A stretch of 38,297 bases of DNA from positions 1 to 38,297 of the IMG/VR virus record IMGVR_UViG_3300042344_000517; one strand, given 5' to 3'. The notes under the pieces are model-generated. The model was not told where the DNA came from and did no database searches. It worked only from the letters and a program-made list of their open reading frames with translations. The position numbers and the translations under genes are program-made. The DNA comes from a virus. Below, one piece after another: positions 2,391 to 32,537 of the stretch. How positions within the stretch are numbered: position 1 is the stretch's first letter; every line of letters begins with the position of its first letter.

Positions 2391-3104
2391 ATGTTTATGG
2401 AAAATCTTTATGTTGAAAAAGTAAACAATTTGACTGCCAAAGAATTGATTGTTAAACATCATTATACACACAAATGGACCATAGCTGAGTTGTGTATAGG
2501 AATCTTCGACAAAAGCAAAGGTAGTGTATTTTTTGAAGCGCCTAAGCTGGTTGGGGCGGTTGTATTTGGACCAACTGCTGGTGCTAATGTGGCTAGAAGT
2601 GTATCACCTTTACTAAATCATTCCAATTTATGGGAGTTGAAACGATTGTGGGTAGAAGATGATTTGGGTAAAAATACTGAAAGTTGGGTTATTGGTCAAT
2701 GTTTGAAATATATCAAACTCAATCATCCTGAAATAAAATGTTTGATAAGTTATGCTGATCCTGATGCTGGACACATCGGTACCATATATCAAGCTACCAA
2801 TTGGCTGTATCAAAATATTGAAAGACCCAAAGGTACCAGTGGTTATATTGTTAGTTTTGATGGTGGTGTTAAATGGCAACATTCACGTACACTATTTAAC
2901 AAATATGGTACGTTTAACTATAACAAATTAATAGAAGTACTACCCAGACCATTTAAAATCAAAGAATTGTCAGTCAAAGAAAGATATATCTATCCACTGG
3001 GAAGCAAAGTGGAAAAGAAAAATCTGATTAAAAGTTTGAATTATCCCATTATAGAATATCCCAAACTCAAATCAGATAAAGAAACAATAATAGAGTTTAA
3101 TTAA
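2391..3104 (+). CDS. mom: Mom-like DNA modification protein (GNAT-related)
   Basis: A 237-residue protein on the opposite strand to nearly all neighbours. The order of motifs is that of the phage Mu Mom family (GNAT-related fold), which makes N6-carbamoylmethyl-adenine in phage DNA to evade restriction. An N-terminal HHYTHKW is followed by LVGAVVFGP, then LWELKRLWVEDD with S-W-V-I-G-Q, then LISYADPDAGHIGTIYQATNW. All of these blocks are seen here; function follows from the family. GAGGTG lies 13-14 nt before ATG 2391, and ATG 2397 is an alternative start. The 3' end overlaps the convergent neighbour by 8 nt. Separate orientation fits late or tightly controlled expression, as in Mu where Mom is toxic (inference). 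Confidence 0.72.
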   Translation: MFMENLYVEKVNNLTAKELIVKHHYTHKWTIAELCIGIFDKSKGSVFFEAPKLVGAVVFGPTAGANVARSVSPLLNHSNLWELKRLWVEDDLGKNTESWVIGQCLKYIKLNHPEIKCLISYADPDAGHIGTIYQATNWLYQNIERPKGTSGYIVSFDGGVKWQHSRTLFNKYGTFNYNKLIEVLPRPFKIKELSVKERYIYPLGSKVEKKNLIKSLNYPIIEYPKLKSDKETIIEFN

Positions 3105-10914: not shown

Positions 10915-11229
10915 ATGTTAAAATATCTATTAGTATTAACCGCAGCATTATCTCTAAATGCTCAAGAAGGTCCAAAAGGTCCACCTCCAGGTAATCGTCC
11001 TCCTCGTCCAAAGTTGACAGAGGAACAAAAAGCACAACGTGTTGCTTTGGTTGCTAAATATGATGTGAATAAAGATGGTAAGTTGGACAAAGAAGAACGT
11101 ACCAAGGTCAGTGATGATGATCGTAAATTAATGAGAAGTTTTGGTCCACCACCAGGCGGTCCAAGAGGTCCAAAACACGATGGTCCACCAAAAGATGGTG
11201 ATAGACCAACCAAACCAAAGAAGAACTAA
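10915..11229 (+). CDS. Secreted EF-hand calcium-binding protein
   Basis: A 104-residue protein on the plus strand. Residues 1-17 form a signal peptide (MLKYLLVLTAALSLNAQ). A Pro/Gly-rich segment (GPPPGNRPPRPK) follows, then LTEEQKAQRVALVAKYDVNKDGKLDKEE, a canonical EF-hand loop with Asp/Asn/Asp/Lys/Asp...Glu spacing, and a second Pro/Gly-rich, basic tail (PPPGGPRGPKHDGPPKDG). Such short EF-hand proteins are common in Gram-negative bacteria, especially Planctomycetes/Verrucomicrobia, and unusual in phage. AAAGGA lies at good spacing before the ATG, unlike most genes here. It is flanked by a divergent promoter and a bidirectional terminator, so it is an independent cassette, probably acquired from a host. 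Confidence 0.75.
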   Translation: MLKYLLVLTAALSLNAQEGPKGPPPGNRPPRPKLTEEQKAQRVALVAKYDVNKDGKLDKEERTKVSDDDRKLMRSFGPPPGGPRGPKHDGPPKDGDRPTKPKKN

Positions 11230-21830: not shown

Positions 21831-21970
21831 CTGCTTGGACGTACCAAACTGCTTAAATCTGGTACAGTATAACCTTGTTTAATTAGTTCACGGGTTTGTT
21901 TTACAAGTCGGTCAAAATAAGCCAACTTCATCTTAATTTCTTCTTTTTCTTTCTTGGTCTGTTTTTTCAT
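21827..21970 (-). CDS. Small basic helical protein
   Basis: A 47-residue protein beginning MKKQTKKEKEEIKMKLAYFD and ending in SSLVRPSR. ATGA overlaps join it to thyA upstream and the DUF4177-like gene downstream. Basic; not recognised. Confidence 0.6.
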   Translation of the reverse strand: MKKQTKKEKEEIKMKLAYFDRLVKQTRELIKQGYTVPDLSSLVRPSR

Positions 21971-23181
21971 ACAGCTACATCAAACTTAATTGTTGGATGA
22001 AACTCATAATCTAATAATTTGATATCATCATACTTGAAATCAAACAGTGATTTAACTTCTGGATTCAACCAAACTCTAGGTAGTTTCTTTGGTTCTCTAG
22101 TTAATTGTAACTTCAATCCGTCAATGTGATTTACATAAATATGCGTATCACCCATTGAATGCGTAAACATACCTGGAACCATATTAACAGTTTGCGCAAT
22201 CATAGCAGTTAACAGTGCATAACTTGCAATATTAAATGGCTTTCCAAGTGCAGTGTCCACGGATCTTTGGTATAACAAACAATTCAAACGACGAGTTGGA
22301 ATATTGTCCTCGTTCAGTTTTTGAATGATCCACACATCAGATTTAGGAAGATTTACAGGACCAACTTGTTTCTGTAAAATCTCAACTCTCTCTTCCAAAG
22401 TCAATTCTTCTGTATGAAAGTGGAAAAGACAATGACAGGGTGGCAATGCGCAATGATCTACCCAGTGTGGATGCCATGCACTCACAATCATACGACGATC
22501 ATCTGGATTGTTTTTTAACTTTTCAAGAACTTTTGTAATTTGATCAATTCTTCCTAGAAAAGTTAATGGTTCATCTCCACAATACGTTCCCTTTGTTCCT
22601 AAAGATTTGAATTTTGGCATCGTTGATGGATCAGTTTTATCAACAATTGTAAAAAATGGAAAATCCCGCCACATTCTACCATAAGTTCCTTCACCCAATT
22701 CACCCCATTCCTTAGCAAATTCAACATCGTTTTTGATTCGGTCAATGAATTTATTTTGTTTTTCCTGTATTGATTTCTTTATACTATCAACCACATCAAA
22801 ATCTTCTGGTTCTAACTTGGAAGCCAATACTCGTTTTTCTTGATTAGACAACAATAATTCATCTGCTAACATTAATCCACCCAATCTTGGTTTGACTTTC
22901 TGATAACGAGAAAATGCCCATTCATTCCAAATACGAACATTGTTATCAACCAGATACTTGATGTTGGTATCTCCACTGATAAACCAAAGCAATTCGTGAA
23001 CAATTGCTGGCCAATGAACTTTTTTGGTGGTTAATAGAGGAAATGCGTTTAGATCCACATTGTATTTGGCTTGAGCACCAAAAATACCAATGGTATCTAC
23101 ACCAGTTCGGTTCTTTTTAAGTCTTCCGTTTGTCAAAATATCATTGACAATTCTGAAATATTCTGTGTCTACTTTGTTCAT
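21967..23181 (-). CDS. thyA: Thymidylate synthase ThyA with large insertions
   Basis: A 404-residue protein against about 264 in E. coli and 286 in T4. Core motifs are intact: KKNRTGVDT phosphate-binding loop, catalytic Cys 249 in LPPCHC, YQRSVDTALGKPFNIASYAL with the dUMP-selecting Asn about 317, and C-terminal VAV. Asn rather than Asp argues for dUMP, not dCMP hydroxymethylation. Extra length comes from three inserts at about 91-157 (charged helical), 175-205 and 255-297. The first corresponds to the small-domain insert known in Lactobacillus casei TS. Adjacent to DHFR, as in many phages, so methylation of dUMP and folate recycling are coupled. Confidence 0.9.
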   Translation of the reverse strand: MNKVDTEYFRIVNDILTNGRLKKNRTGVDTIGIFGAQAKYNVDLNAFPLLTTKKVHWPAIVHELLWFISGDTNIKYLVDNNVRIWNEWAFSRYQKVKPRLGGLMLADELLLSNQEKRVLASKLEPEDFDVVDSIKKSIQEKQNKFIDRIKNDVEFAKEWGELGEGTYGRMWRDFPFFTIVDKTDPSTMPKFKSLGTKGTYCGDEPLTFLGRIDQITKVLEKLKNNPDDRRMIVSAWHPHWVDHCALPPCHCLFHFHTEELTLEERVEILQKQVGPVNLPKSDVWIIQKLNEDNIPTRRLNCLLYQRSVDTALGKPFNIASYALLTAMIAQTVNMVPGMFTHSMGDTHIYVNHIDGLKLQLTREPKKLPRVWLNPEVKSLFDFKYDDIKLLDYEFHPTIKFDVAV

Positions 23182-25508: not shown

Positions 25509-25976
25509 TTATTCTGTTTGTACTTCTGATTCTTTATTTTCTATAATGTCATTGGTATAACCTTCGTATTTTACCTCACCAATAACATTGATAATAAATT
25601 TGTTGGTAATAGTTCCCTCCAAGTTGCTTGTAACAATATAACTCTCTTGTACACTACCATCAAGAAAAAACACAATCTTTGTGGCACTTGTTTCTAGTAT
25701 CTTCAAATCATTTGTTACAGCATCTAATAAATAAAAGTCTTCAAACGAACTATACATATTATAATCTGGATCAAATGTAAGTTCAAACTCTTTTTGTTGA
25801 AATGCGGATTGATACTTTAAATTAATTAAATAAGTCTTCAGATTCTCTCTTGCTTCGTAGTATCTAGTATTACCCACCAAACTATCATAGTTAATAACAA
25901 TTGCACCAATAATACCAAGCAATATAGTTATTGCTAATACTAATTCTATTAATGTAAATGCTTTATTGTTTTTCAT
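25509..25976 (-). CDS. Type IV prepilin/pseudopilin-like protein
   Basis: A 155-residue protein. The N terminus, KNNKAFTLIELVLAITILLG, is the class III (prepilin) signal: a short basic leader, the F-T-L-I-E block with Glu at +5 of the mature chain, then a hydrophobic helix. The residue before the cut is Ala, not the usual Gly. The rest is a beta-rich pilin-like head (FELTFDPDYNMYSSFEDFYL, IVFFLDGSVQESYIV, KFIINVIGEVKYEGY). It is most like minor pseudopilins (GspH type) of host pili or type II secretion. Such proteins are unusual in phages. It follows the two glycosyltransferases. Confidence 0.75.
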   Translation of the reverse strand: MKNNKAFTLIELVLAITILLGIIGAIVINYDSLVGNTRYYEARENLKTYLINLKYQSAFQQKEFELTFDPDYNMYSSFEDFYLLDAVTNDLKILETSATKIVFFLDGSVQESYIVTSNLEGTITNKFIINVIGEVKYEGYTNDIIENKESEVQTE

Positions 25977-26262
25977 TTATTAGTTTTAGTTTTTGTTGAC
26001 GGTTCAATTGTTTGATTTGATACTCCCTCTTCATTGCTTCACTCTTGGTATCAAAACATTCAGTATATACTAATCTAACAGGCAATCGTGTCTTTGTATA
26101 TTTTGCCCCTAAAGATTTATTGTGGGTATCTACTCGTTTTTCAACATTATTAGAATACCCACAATAAAGTTCTCCACCCCTACATTCTACTATATAACAA
26201 CAATGATTTTTACCAACCACGAATATCAAGTTTTGTTCTAGGAAAAGCCGTTCCCATTCCAA
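25963..26262 (-). CDS. GIY-YIG domain protein (YhbQ/UvrC-type)
   Basis: About 80-99 residues: CCYIVECRGGELYCGYSNNVEKRVDTHN is the GIY-YIG core (CYI...YCG), followed by KYTKTRLPVRLVYTECFDTKSEAMKREYQIKQL, the YhbQ-type extension. The Arg and Glu catalytic residues are visible. ATG 26262 overlaps the upstream gene by 53 nt. A GTG at 26220 would give a domain-only protein and may be the real start. It could be a small structure-specific nuclease. Confidence 0.75.
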   Translation of the reverse strand: MEWERLFLEQNLIFVVGKNHCCYIVECRGGELYCGYSNNVEKRVDTHNKSLGAKYTKTRLPVRLVYTECFDTKSEAMKREYQIKQLNRQQKLKLINEKQ

Positions 26263-26578
26263 TATTACCGTTAGAACTAAATGTTAAGTTACTTAGATTT
26301 GATGTAACTGGTTCTGGTTTTTTGAGTGGGGAATGAATATTGATTGAAATATTCTCACTATTATTAACTCTGATTGCAAAGTTATCACTATCAACAAATG
26401 ACATTACACAACTAGCACCACTACTATGTGTAAATACCAATTTGTCACAATATACAACTGTTTCTACAACTGGTGGTGGTACAATAGGTTCAGATGCTTT
26501 AACACTTGAACCAGCAACAACACCTGCGATTCCGCCAAATAGGGTGGCGAAGAACCCTTTACGATTTAGTTTTTCCAT
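26210..26578 (-). CDS. Exported protein with fibre-like GNIGMGT motif
   Basis: A 122-residue protein. Residues 1-28 form an export signal (NRKGFFATLFGGIAGVVAGSS, ending V-K-A before SEP), close to a Tat-type N-R-R/K-x-F-F. A Pro-rich spacer (VPPPVVE) and a beta-rich middle follow. The C terminus GNIGMGTAFPRTKLDIRG is the pattern 'G-N-V-G-I-G-T-T-x-P-x-x-K-L-x-V-x-G' that closes many tail-fibre and collar stalk domains. The combination is unexpected. Promoter at 26587-26615. Confidence 0.55.
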   Translation of the reverse strand: MEKLNRKGFFATLFGGIAGVVAGSSVKASEPIVPPPVVETVVYCDKLVFTHSSGASCVMSFVDSDNFAIRVNNSENISINIHSPLKKPEPVTSNLSNLTFSSNGNIGMGTAFPRTKLDIRGW

Positions 26579-27160: not shown

Positions 27161-27583
27161 TTATTTGTTGTTAACATTAGTCAATGCTTCATAAATTTCA
27201 CGCCAATCTTTGGTACCATCAAATCCAGCCTTATCATCAAGTAAAAAATTAAAGTAAAACTTGTCTTGAAAATCACACAATGATGTATTAGGACACTCTG
27301 AATTGCAATTGATACCATTAAAATTCAAATCAAAACGTTGAACCACATCTTGAATTGATGTCATATAACTGCTTGTCCAAAGAATAGTATAATGATCTGG
27401 ACTATTGTATAGATAATCAAGAGTTTCCTTGGCATATGGATAAATGACTGCTCCACTATTGAATCGGTTGTATGTACCACTAATGATGGTATCATGTAAG
27501 TCAATACACCAATACAACTTTTCCCATTTACGTTCAACCTTTTGACTTTGAACGTGTTGAATAATTTGAGTCCAAGTTTTCAT
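27161..27583 (-). CDS. HAD-superfamily phosphatase-like protein
   Basis: A 140-residue protein: WCIDLHDTII (HAD motif I D-x-x-D-T), ILWTSSYMTS (motif II Thr/Ser), FLLDDKAGFDG (motif IV DD). Small HAD proteins of this size often act on nucleotides or sugar phosphates. ATGA overlap with prs. It may process a phosphorylated metabolite of the same pathway. Confidence 0.7.
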   Translation of the reverse strand: MKTWTQIIQHVQSQKVERKWEKLYWCIDLHDTIISGTYNRFNSGAVIYPYAKETLDYLYNSPDHYTILWTSSYMTSIQDVVQRFDLNFNGINCNSECPNTSLCDFQDKFYFNFLLDDKAGFDGTKDWREIYEALTNVNNK

Positions 27584-28539
27584 ACAAATAGTTCACTTAC
27601 ACTTTCATTCTGGTTGATACTACGAATAGCCTTAGCAAACAACATACTCACATCCAACTCTGTAACATTAGCTGGTTTGAATCCAATATTACCCCAAGTA
27701 TTTGTTGTATTACTATGAATAAATTCATCAATACTATTGCTTTCCGCCAATCGTTTGATACCCATATCAGTCAAACAACCATGTGTAACAGCACAAGTTA
27801 CCTTTACAGCACCCTGTTTCTTACATTCATTAGCCGCCTGAACCATAGTACCAAGACTTTCTGTAAGATCATCAATAATAACTACGTGTTTATCTTTTAC
27901 ATTACCTACAACATTTTGTAGTTCAACCTTGGTATCACTTACACGCTTCTTACTAATGAATCCAAAATCACTTCTTAGTAGATCCGCATACTTTTCTACA
28001 CGTTTGACCGCACCAACATCAGGTGCCATCAATACAACACTATCCCTATAGGCCAATGAATGATACTTGGTACTGATATAATCACTCAATACTGGTTCAA
28101 ATGTAAGATGATCAAATGGTAGATTAGTAAAACCACCCACTTGTGGACTATGTAGATCCATAGTTACCACCCTATCAATACCAGCAGTAGCAATCAAATC
28201 CATTACTAACCTAGCTGTAATGGGAACACGACTTTTATCCTTACGATCTTGACGGGCATAACCAAAGTATGGAATTACCGCAGTAATTCGTTCTGCACTA
28301 GCACGCCTAGCCGCATCAGCCATAACAAGCAACTCCATTAGGTTTTCATTGGCTGGATTGGTAATGCCTTGAATTAAAAATACATCACTACCACGAATGT
28401 TTTCCTTGAATTGACAATAGGTTTCACCACTTGGAAATTTGTGGTGGTAGATCTTACCTAGTGGTTCATTTAGATTCTGTGAAATCTTCTGAGCCAATGG
28501 TAGATTGCTTGTACCTGCAAATAGTTTAATAGTTTTCAT
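27580..28539 (-). CDS. prs: Ribose-phosphate pyrophosphokinase (Prs)
   Basis: A 319-residue protein of the PRPP synthase family with GTSNLPLAQKI, YFGYARQDRKDK (catalytic loop), VTMDLHSPQVGGF and APDVGAVKRV. The PRPP loop is VVIIDDLTESLGTM. Several usually invariant positions differ: FPSGE for FSDGE, and IDDLTESLGT for VDD(M/I)xDT(A/G)GT. It would make PRPP for NadV. Phage Prs-like enzymes of the NARP1 pathway act instead on ADP-ribose, and the motif changes leave this open. Operon with Pth2 upstream, HAD downstream. Confidence 0.87.
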   Translation of the reverse strand: MKTIKLFAGTSNLPLAQKISQNLNEPLGKIYHHKFPSGETYCQFKENIRGSDVFLIQGITNPANENLMELLVMADAARRASAERITAVIPYFGYARQDRKDKSRVPITARLVMDLIATAGIDRVVTMDLHSPQVGGFTNLPFDHLTFEPVLSDYISTKYHSLAYRDSVVLMAPDVGAVKRVEKYADLLRSDFGFISKKRVSDTKVELQNVVGNVKDKHVVIIDDLTESLGTMVQAANECKKQGAVKVTCAVTHGCLTDMGIKRLAESNSIDEFIHSNTTNTWGNIGFKPANVTELDVSMLFAKAIRSINQNESVSELFV

Positions 28540-30108: not shown

Positions 30109-31503
30109 TTACAAAGCAGCGTTCTTACGAATAGTAGCAAAGTCAACTTCATTGAGCAATACGCCATCATAAAAAACAACCTTCAAATAATCCTCACCAG
30201 GATCATTTTCACCAACAGTCTCAAATTCACCATCAACCTTGATCAACTTGAGCTTGCCCTTCTTGGATGCCTTGGAAACATCCTTGGGATTCTTCTGAAT
30301 GTCATACCACTGACCATCACGATACTGAGCACTACACTTGAAAGCACAACGCTGAGTATCACGATTTACCTTCTGCAACAAACCTCCACCCATACCAAAA
30401 CAAGCAATGTTCTCAGTTGCAAATCCAGCCTTGGTAACAGCATACAGAATCTTCTTGATACCATCAATGTCAATTCCATCACCCCACAACACACGAACCT
30501 TGGGGTTGATAACCTTGTATCCCTTGCTGTTAATGGTTCCGCCGATATTAGCCCACAAATTCTCCATAATCCAAACCATTTCCTCCTCTGGAGTAGGATG
30601 GGTAGGAGTAATAGAGTCAGGACGAACAACAAACACACCGTCACGGTCAAGAATACGATCCTTGAACTTAGTGCCAACAATGTTGCTCACGAAGTTATAA
30701 ATGTCATAGCTGTCAGAAACAACAGACAAAATACCCGTAGGATACTCGTTCAGAAGATTCTCAACAACCTGTTCTTCACCATTCTTACCAAGAGCAGTCA
30801 TAACAGAGTGTTCAGTGGCAGCAACGGAAAACGCCAAACCATTAAGATCAGCATTATAATAGTTCACGGCGACTTCCATAGCCACTACCGTATCAGTCCC
30901 CAAGAAATTAATCAAATGAGCAGCCCCCCCGATACCCGCCGATTCCCAAGAGCTGGCACCCCTAAATCCAAAATCATGCAATCCAAAGTTAAGCAATCCA
31001 CCATCAGAGGTAAGATCAAAATATTCCTTGATATTAACCTTAACTTCACGGGACAAAGCTGCGACTGTAGTACTATACCAAACCTGAGACAAAATAGTCT
31101 CCAAGAAGTTAGTGAGCCAGAAACACTTATTGTCAGTGTTTTCAATAGTCATCAACACATTGTTGATAGGAACAACAGTTCCTTCTTCAACTGACTTGAT
31201 AACAACAGGCAACTTACCGCCATAGTTATTCAGAATGTATTCCCAACCTTCACGGTTAAAATACTTTTCATCACCAAAGTGAGCCTTACACAACTTAGCA
31301 GCATTTTCAATCTTTTCACGGGTAACAACTACACCCTCAAGATGATTCTTAATAATATACTGAAGTCCAAAGAATGGAGTTTTAGCAAACTTAGCACCCT
31401 TACGACATTCAAAGTAACTATAAACCTTCTCAGTGCCAGCGGGATACTGATTCCAGTGATTCAACTTATAGGAATCCGTAGTCAAACAAATGTTCTTATT
31501 CAT
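30109..31503 (-). CDS. nadV: Nicotinamide phosphoribosyltransferase NadV
   Basis: A 464-residue protein, normal length for the family. Recognisable blocks are TDSYKLNHWNQYPAGTEKVYSYFE, HDFGFRGASSWESAGIGGAAHLINFLGTDT, VAATEHSVMTA, SVVSDSYDIYNFV, VVRPDS and FGMGGGLLQKVNRDTQRCAFK. It joins nicotinamide and PRPP to make NMN, which NadM then adenylates. It has its own promoter with a long leader and its own terminator. Phage pairs of NadV and NadM-Nudix are known in KVP40-like phages. Confidence 0.94.
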   Translation of the reverse strand: MNKNICLTTDSYKLNHWNQYPAGTEKVYSYFECRKGAKFAKTPFFGLQYIIKNHLEGVVVTREKIENAAKLCKAHFGDEKYFNREGWEYILNNYGGKLPVVIKSVEEGTVVPINNVLMTIENTDNKCFWLTNFLETILSQVWYSTTVAALSREVKVNIKEYFDLTSDGGLLNFGLHDFGFRGASSWESAGIGGAAHLINFLGTDTVVAMEVAVNYYNADLNGLAFSVAATEHSVMTALGKNGEEQVVENLLNEYPTGILSVVSDSYDIYNFVSNIVGTKFKDRILDRDGVFVVRPDSITPTHPTPEEEMVWIMENLWANIGGTINSKGYKVINPKVRVLWGDGIDIDGIKKILYAVTKAGFATENIACFGMGGGLLQKVNRDTQRCAFKCSAQYRDGQWYDIQKNPKDVSKASKKGKLKLIKVDGEFETVGENDPGEDYLKVVFYDGVLLNEVDFATIRKNAAL

Positions 31504-31555: not shown

Positions 31556-31584
31556 ATAATAACCCAGACTTCACTCAAAGTCAA
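31556..31584 (-). promoter_or_regulatory. nadV promoter with long leader
   Basis: TTGACT (31579-31584), 17-bp spacer, GGT then TATTAT (31556-31561). Here the ATG is about 52 nt past the -10, so the mRNA has a real leader. Just before the ATG is AGATAAAATT, closely similar to the nadM leader end. Confidence 0.75.
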
Positions 31585-32537
31585 GGCATATTTCCGTCAA
31601 TGTCAGGCTGAATAAATGTATCTTTCAGCTTGATATTGTTAACAAACTTTTCATTAAACATATCAATCAGAACGTGGTGCGTTTCAACAATATCAGTTTT
31701 ATTCAGATTATTGATAGAAACCCACTTGACTTCTGCAACGTCATCTGCACCCTCTGGTTTACCAAACACATACTTGGCAACAAACAATGCAGTCTTGATC
31801 TTGTCAATTTCTCCACGATAACGCCAATCGTTAATTAATGTAGAACCCAGATACGTGATGTTACCCACTTCAACCCCAGATTCCTCCAACACTTCACGTT
31901 TAGCGTCTTCTTCAAGTGAAATAGAATTGGGATCGCTGAATCCGCCAATCAACCGCCACTTCTTTTCCTCTGGCTTACGTGCCAGAAGCAGTTCACCCTT
32001 ATCATTTACCACAGCAATGTCAACAGTCTGAAATGCGGTTGGAAAACGATATGCAGTAGCAGCAATCATACCAGCACGATAATCTGCTGTGGGAGGATAG
32101 TTGTTACACACACGACGACGAACCTCAGTACCACTAATAAAAGTAGTAGCTTCAAGTTCACAAGTATTGAACTTACCATTGTAACACTTTAGGAAGCTAT
32201 CACGGGAACCATATAGTGTAACAGTCTGCATTGGAAGCAACTGTTCAGCAATAAGCTTATCCAGATTCTTTGACCAAGCAATATCCGAGGGATTATCATT
32301 AATATAATGAATCTCTACAGTGGGGAACTTCTCTGCAATCATTGCTCGCCTTGCACGATAGTCAAGAGGATTGTTGAGAGTATTACGAATGATGCTATTG
32401 CCTAGAAACAGCAATACCCGGTCGTGTTTATTGAGCACTGAAGTGATTAGGTCAGTATGAGCATCGTGCAATTCATTGACCTGGAAGCGACCGACAATAA
32501 CGCCCACATCGGTAGGCTTTGTACCTTTTTCTTTCAT
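31581..32537 (-). CDS. nadM: Bifunctional NMN adenylyltransferase/Nudix hydrolase
   Basis: A 318-residue protein. The N-terminal NadM domain has VGRFQVNELHDAHTDL (nucleotidyltransferase H-x-x-H, 24-27) and FISGTEVRRRV (134-144). The C-terminal Nudix box (about 198-223) has GGFSDPN and REVLEESGV. The Nudix half has a one-residue-longer loop than usual before R-E. It makes NAD+ from NMN and ATP; the Nudix half probably hydrolyses ADP-ribose or related compounds. The same architecture as NatV of phage KVP40. It has its own promoter and long leader. Confidence 0.92.
   Translation of the reverse strand: MKEKGTKPTDVGVIVGRFQVNELHDAHTDLITSVLNKHDRVLLFLGNSIIRNTLNNPLDYRARRAMIAEKFPTVEIHYINDNPSDIAWSKNLDKLIAEQLLPMQTVTLYGSRDSFLKCYNGKFNTCELEATTFISGTEVRRRVCNNYPPTADYRAGMIAATAYRFPTAFQTVDIAVVNDKGELLLARKPEEKKWRLIGGFSDPNSISLEEDAKREVLEESGVEVGNITYLGSTLINDWRYRGEIDKIKTALFVAKYVFGKPEGADDVAEVKWVSINNLNKTDIVETHHVLIDMFNEKFVNNIKLKDTFIQPDIDGNMP

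Follow-up and report, generated by a model that had tools for sequence, protein, structure and literature searches.

A phage-encoded prepilin related to the type II secretion pseudopilin GspH of Verrucomicrobiota

The minor pseudopilin GspH of the type II secretion system (T2SS) and the minor pilins FimT and FimU of type IV pili belong to one protein family, and GspH and FimU have been proposed to act as adaptors between the tip and the filament (PMC8897410). Peptides mimicking the interface at the tip act as inhibitors of the T2SS in vivo (PMC6211770), and the ratio of minor to major pilins affects pilus dynamics, which are increased in Vibrio when minor pilins are raised (PMC13249403). Phages are known to disable the motors of type IV filaments with small inhibitors such as Tip and Aqs1, which are cytoplasmic PilB-binding proteins (PMC11656802), and infection by phage phiAP1 requires a functional T2SS (PMC9765573). 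No description of a pseudopilin encoded by a phage came up in the open-access library searched, although one may exist elsewhere. Here we describe a prepilin gene in IMGVR_UViG_3300042344_000517, which is listed as a virus record and whose full length of 38,297 nt (38.3 kb) is referred to as the window. The carriage of this shortened relative of GspH by phages suggests a tampering with host protein export during infection. The features discussed are collected in Table 1.

Table 1. Position and basis of the main features in the window
Feature	Position	Strand	Basis or remark
GspH-derived prepilin gene, 155 aa	25509..25976	-	ORF; PF07963 above cut-off; 14 viral relatives; dN/dS; GspH profile match
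Leader peptide MKNNKA; predicted cut after Ala6 by host prepilin peptidase	25959..25976	-	Motif A^FTLIE; PF07963
N-terminal hydrophobic helix of prepilin, residues 7-30, Glu at +5	25887..25958	-	Sequence; low-confidence model helix; conserved in all relatives
Head region of prepilin, residues 26-140, FFLDGS at residues 103-108, without host insert	25557..25901	-	Alignment with host GspH-slot proteins
Small GIY-YIG nuclease gene	25963..26262	-	PF01541 8.6e-21; gene may in fact start downstream of 26262
Gene of 122-aa protein; N terminus NRKGFFATLFGG signal-like (by eye, Tat-like); C-terminal motif NGNIGMGTAFPRTKLDIRG of fibre-protein kind	26210..26578	-	ORF; alignment of relatives
EF-hand-like gene with signal-like N terminus, host marker	10915..11229	+	GTDB relatives

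The prepilin reads MKNNKA^FTLIELVLAITILLGIIGAIVINYD at its N terminus, so that the predicted cut separates Ala (-1) from FTLIEL, in which Phe is +1 and Glu is +5, and a hydrophobic helix is present. This arrangement corresponds to the class III signal of type IV filament prepilins, in which a short leader closes with Gly or Ala and is followed by Phe or Met, by Glu in position +5 and by a helix of hydrophobic residues. The prepilin signature that a preliminary description had noted in the sequence was borne out by a match of residues 1-20 to the N_methyl profile PF07963 (24 bits against a cut-off of 21.2, E 2.6e-5), which is the sole match to that profile in the record; the plus strand of the same interval is closed by stops. 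Beyond the N terminus, phrog_24680 matches residues 42-138 (E 4e-4, 6/10 members), and the prepilin-like N termini of phrog_10597, phrog_13280 and phrog_11596 match the N-terminal part of the window protein, the head not being covered. The protein ends in ...DIIENKESEVQTE (also given as IIENKESEVQTE), which is acidic by eye. As for the pilin-like beta head of the preliminary description, a low-confidence AlphaFold model (pLDDT 44) places strands at residues 63-134, which would fit such a head; a second model had a pLDDT of 38, and both are unreliable and were predicted without the distant viral relatives L205 and L206 and without host sequences. Better support for the head comes from the alignment over the full length with host GspH proteins described below.

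Searches of cellular genomes with a profile of the phage proteins point to one particular gene of the T2SS. Three matches at E <= 1e-4 were found in 388 Verrucomicrobiota genomes, and one more in a Pedosphaera metagenome-assembled genome (G028); the genes at L107, L109 and L110 are prepilin genes that adjoin GspG or precede GspI and GspJ, that is, they occupy the GspH slot of T2SS operons. In a further set, 245 genomes from the order of G028, the profile had 24 matches at an E threshold of 0.001, and prepilin genes in the GspH slot account for at least 21 of them (at L172 the GspG side lies off the contig); L187 is another kind of prepilin. One host operon contained matches to T2SSG, GspH, T2SSJ (weak), T2SSK, PilM and the secretin. 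By profile matching and gene order, the best cellular relatives are the GspH-slot genes of T2SS operons in Verrucomicrobiota of Pedosphaera's order. The host relatives stand between GspG and GspI or GspJ, whereas the phage gene lies outside any T2SS operon, with phage genes as its neighbours.

Profile-profile comparison with hhalign gave a probability of 98.4% and a score of 95.6 between the phage proteins and the host GspH slot, against scores of 49.1 for GspG and 50.2 for GspJ from the same loci, and a broader set followed the same trend. The alignment with host GspH spans the full length, stalk and head, with F7, L9, E11, D106, G107 and G133 invariant. Shared with GspH (PF12019, the GspH/FimT family) of verrucomicrobial T2SS are the prepilin N terminus, the stalk GA(I/V)V(I/F)N(Y/F)xSL, the order of strands and the C-terminal F(Y/F)xDGS motif. 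PF12019 is matched by 14/19 rows of the joint alignment, which holds 14 host and 5 phage proteins; the window protein alone has no match to it at E 0.05 or 0.1. The two forms differ in length, the host GspH-slot proteins having 193-292 aa and the phage form 155 aa (136 in L205), and in a large head insert with the motif WExDPxxxPGxF, which is present in host GspH and absent from the phage form. Because of this missing insert and the lack of a PF12019 match for the window protein alone, we name the protein GspH-derived rather than GspH. The viral relative L206, which is 36% identical to the window protein, bridges the two forms, with its PDGTSDEA aligned to PDGSSDSA of the host. Phylogenetic reconstruction groups the phage proteins in a single clade (98/85), apart from GspG and GspJ, on long branches that make its place among the GspH proteins uncertain. 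The Ala before the cut, which had been taken as a departure from the signature, proved to be ordinary, since 6 of the 21 relatives in the GspH slot of hosts have it (Gly in the other 15). Other sources of the gene were considered and rejected: GspG, GspI and GspJ on their lower profile scores, the competence minor pilins ComGD and ComGE on weak matches far below the cut-offs, and a FimT-like DNA receptor on the want of a basic C-terminal DNA-binding tail, the C terminus being acidic by eye.

Relatives of the prepilin were found on 12 other IMG/VR contigs, with 74-100% identity, and a later scan that used the joint phage-and-host alignment added two at 36% identity, L205 and L206. The preliminary description had called for such a search in other phages and had considered pilin-like proteins rare in them; none of the 50,697 GenBank phages of the INPHARED set has a relative, in keeping with that rarity. 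Pairwise dN/dS values of 0.08-0.25 indicate that the gene is under purifying selection, and a chance ORF is ruled out by these values and by the conservation. Two copies are damaged, one by an in-frame stop at codon 57 (L004, 1121-1585) and one whose frame ends after 92 codons (L013, 1234-1512). A scan of GTDB contigs found no close cellular copy of the phage prepilin, which, together with the presence of the gene amid phage genes on 15 viral contigs (the window included), rules out host contamination of one assembly. In addition, 15 other records that share the NAMPT gene with the window, one of them of 303 kb, matched neither the prepilin profile nor PF07963 (the contig of L205 also surfaced in the NAMPT scan, as L041, and is not one of these 15), so that the prepilin gene seems to be an accessory trait, carried by some members of the phage group.

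The phage nature of the window is apparent from its PHROG matches, which include NAMPT (1e-156), an SPFH lipoprotein (6e-60) and a Mom-like protein (1e-48). All phage records in the comparison are linear fragments. The prepilin-bearing relative G012 (locus L013) has genes for wedge proteins of the baseplate, an indication that these are contractile-tailed phages. The EF-hand-like gene stands alone on the plus strand within a block of minus-strand genes, has a GC content of 41% against 34% for the window, and is probably a recent acquisition from a host; 45 of its 51 relatives in the GTDB contig scan lie on contigs titled Verrucomicrobiota. From this gene and from the kinship with the GspH slot we infer that the phages probably infect Verrucomicrobiota.

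In the main clade, two further genes form a cassette with the prepilin gene. The GIY-YIG gene shares the 14 bases at its 3' end with the start of the prepilin gene, and in turn overlaps the gene of the 122-aa signal-bearing protein, which has a weak tail-fibre PHROG match and no Pfam match. Scans for both of these genes found them only on prepilin-carrying contigs; a shorter, orphan GIY-YIG homologue occurs in L028 without the other cassette genes. The cassette has two orders, with the prepilin last or first (L005, L007), and its flanking genes vary. The signal-bearing gene accompanies the prepilin on all main-clade contigs and is absent from the distant relatives L205 and L206, and is therefore a strong but not obligatory partner. 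In the related phage G018, long ORFs of 1367 and 1640 aa (78.7-85.0 kb, L207-L210) weakly match the C-terminal motif of this protein, with E values of 7e-4 and weaker, so that its tail may derive from a fibre. The literature yielded nothing usable that links small GIY-YIG nucleases to natural transformation.

A hairpin of 14-21 bp was also observed inside the GIY-YIG ORF, upstream of the prepilin start (26110-26174, minus strand). Its RNA fold has an energy of -25.1 kcal/mol and a z of -4.8 in the window (-5.3 in L003), and its register is kept in relatives by compensatory changes, with 19 cells changed on both sides versus 8.7 in shuffles and 83% pairing in register versus 38-53% when slid. 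The orphan GIY-YIG gene of L028 lacks the hairpin (z -0.35), and comparison with Rfam gave no convincing match. The hairpin could regulate the prepilin gene that follows directly downstream, or serve the nuclease as a target.

In the explanation that we consider best, the phage gene would encode a phage-adapted minor pseudopilin descended from the GspH of a verrucomicrobial T2SS. Host pili and T2SS pseudopili had both been named as possible targets, of which homology favours the pseudopilus, and we give an even chance to the proposal that the phage prepilin acts in, and alters, the host T2SS pseudopilus, its cleavage, its incorporation, the effect on secretion and the benefit to the phage being steps that we infer. 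The preliminary description had also raised a blocking of receptor pili, a stop to superinfection and a help in exit, which are conjectural roles. The prepilin would enter the inner membrane during infection, would lose its leader after Ala6 through the prepilin peptidase of the host, and would join the host pseudopilus in the tip-adaptor position of GspH, replacing it. Because the phage head is without the large insert of host GspH, the tip would be altered, and an altered tip may retune or jam the host T2SS. Such a change could shut a T2SS-dependent entry route for competing phages or change the exported cargo; the exclusion of competitors is conceivable since phiAP1 needs a functional T2SS (PMC9765573), tip-mimicking peptides inhibit the system (PMC6211770) and the minor-to-major ratio shifts pilus dynamics (PMC13249403). 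The effect could be a block, a retuning or a redirected export. Neither a prepilin peptidase nor a T2SS ATPase above the Pfam cut-off was found in 17 phage records, which are fragments, so that this absence is weak evidence.

Like Tip and Aqs1, the phage prepilin may target the type IV filament machinery of its host, possibly with a similar purpose (PMC11656802), but it would act as a subunit and not as a cytoplasmic motor-binding protein. If true, the supply of a reduced pseudopilin by a phage would be a different tactic, in which the filament is altered from within. The phage form also makes the function of the GspH position and of the head insert testable, and offers a way into the Verrucomicrobiota, a phylum in which secretion systems and phages have received little study.

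Among the other explanations, it is possible but unlikely that the phage prepilin enters host type IV pili in the manner of FimU or FimT, with effects on twitching, on the uptake of DNA or on phage adsorption that depends on pili. The common family of GspH, FimT and FimU (PMC8897410), the weak ComGD and ComGE matches and the precedent of phages that inhibit type IV pili through PilB-binding proteins (PMC11656802) are all compatible with it, but at least 21 of the 24 cellular matches lie in T2SS operons, the relatives found have no pilus operon context, and the C terminus IIENKESEVQTE is, by eye, acidic, unlike the basic DNA-binding tail. A helpful auxiliary subunit, by which host type II secretion, for example of polymer-degrading enzymes, would be kept or raised during infection and so feed the infected cell, seems to us distinctly unlikely: the missing head insert, which is conserved in the host, argues against a simple replacement of GspH, even though strong purifying selection and the conserved core fit a working subunit, other window genes are metabolic (NAMPT, NMNAT-Nudix and PRPP synthase), and more minor pilins lead to greater pilus dynamics in Vibrio (PMC13249403). 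A role outside filaments, with the stalk as the anchor of a membrane protein that perhaps holds its fibre-like neighbour at the membrane, or as a minor part of the virion, is improbable, for although the signal-bearing neighbour is constant in the main clade and the host head insert is gone, the prepilin cut site, Glu at +5 and the DGS core are retained under selection, also in L205 and L206 where the partner gene is missing.

Returning to an altered pseudopilus, a more elaborate version, to which we attach little probability, would make the cassette a portable kit that redirects the host T2SS: the phage pseudopilin would replace GspH, the T2SS would export the fibre-like neighbour, and the infected cell would become coated and its phage receptors masked.

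Other genes of the window were noted in passing. The Mom-like DNA modification gene (2391-3104, plus strand) matches PF25680 at 2e-43 as well as its PHROG at 1e-48. NAD-related genes are clustered on the minus strand at 27580-28539, 30109-31503 and 31581-32537, and encode NAMPT, a fusion of NMNAT with Nudix and, judged by its sequence, a PRPP synthase (in the order 30109-31503, 31581-32537 and 27580-28539), which together are a predicted phage NAD-salvage set; this set resembles the pathways of NAD reconstitution that serve in anti-defence. The phage of L206 has an NAD-synthetase-like ORF, recognised by eye. Finally, the thymidylate synthase slot of the window (21967-23181, minus strand, 404 aa) has counterparts in L004, L008 and L012 that are 28-34% identical to it, and such low identity amid otherwise similar surroundings suggests a replacement of the thymidylate synthase gene.
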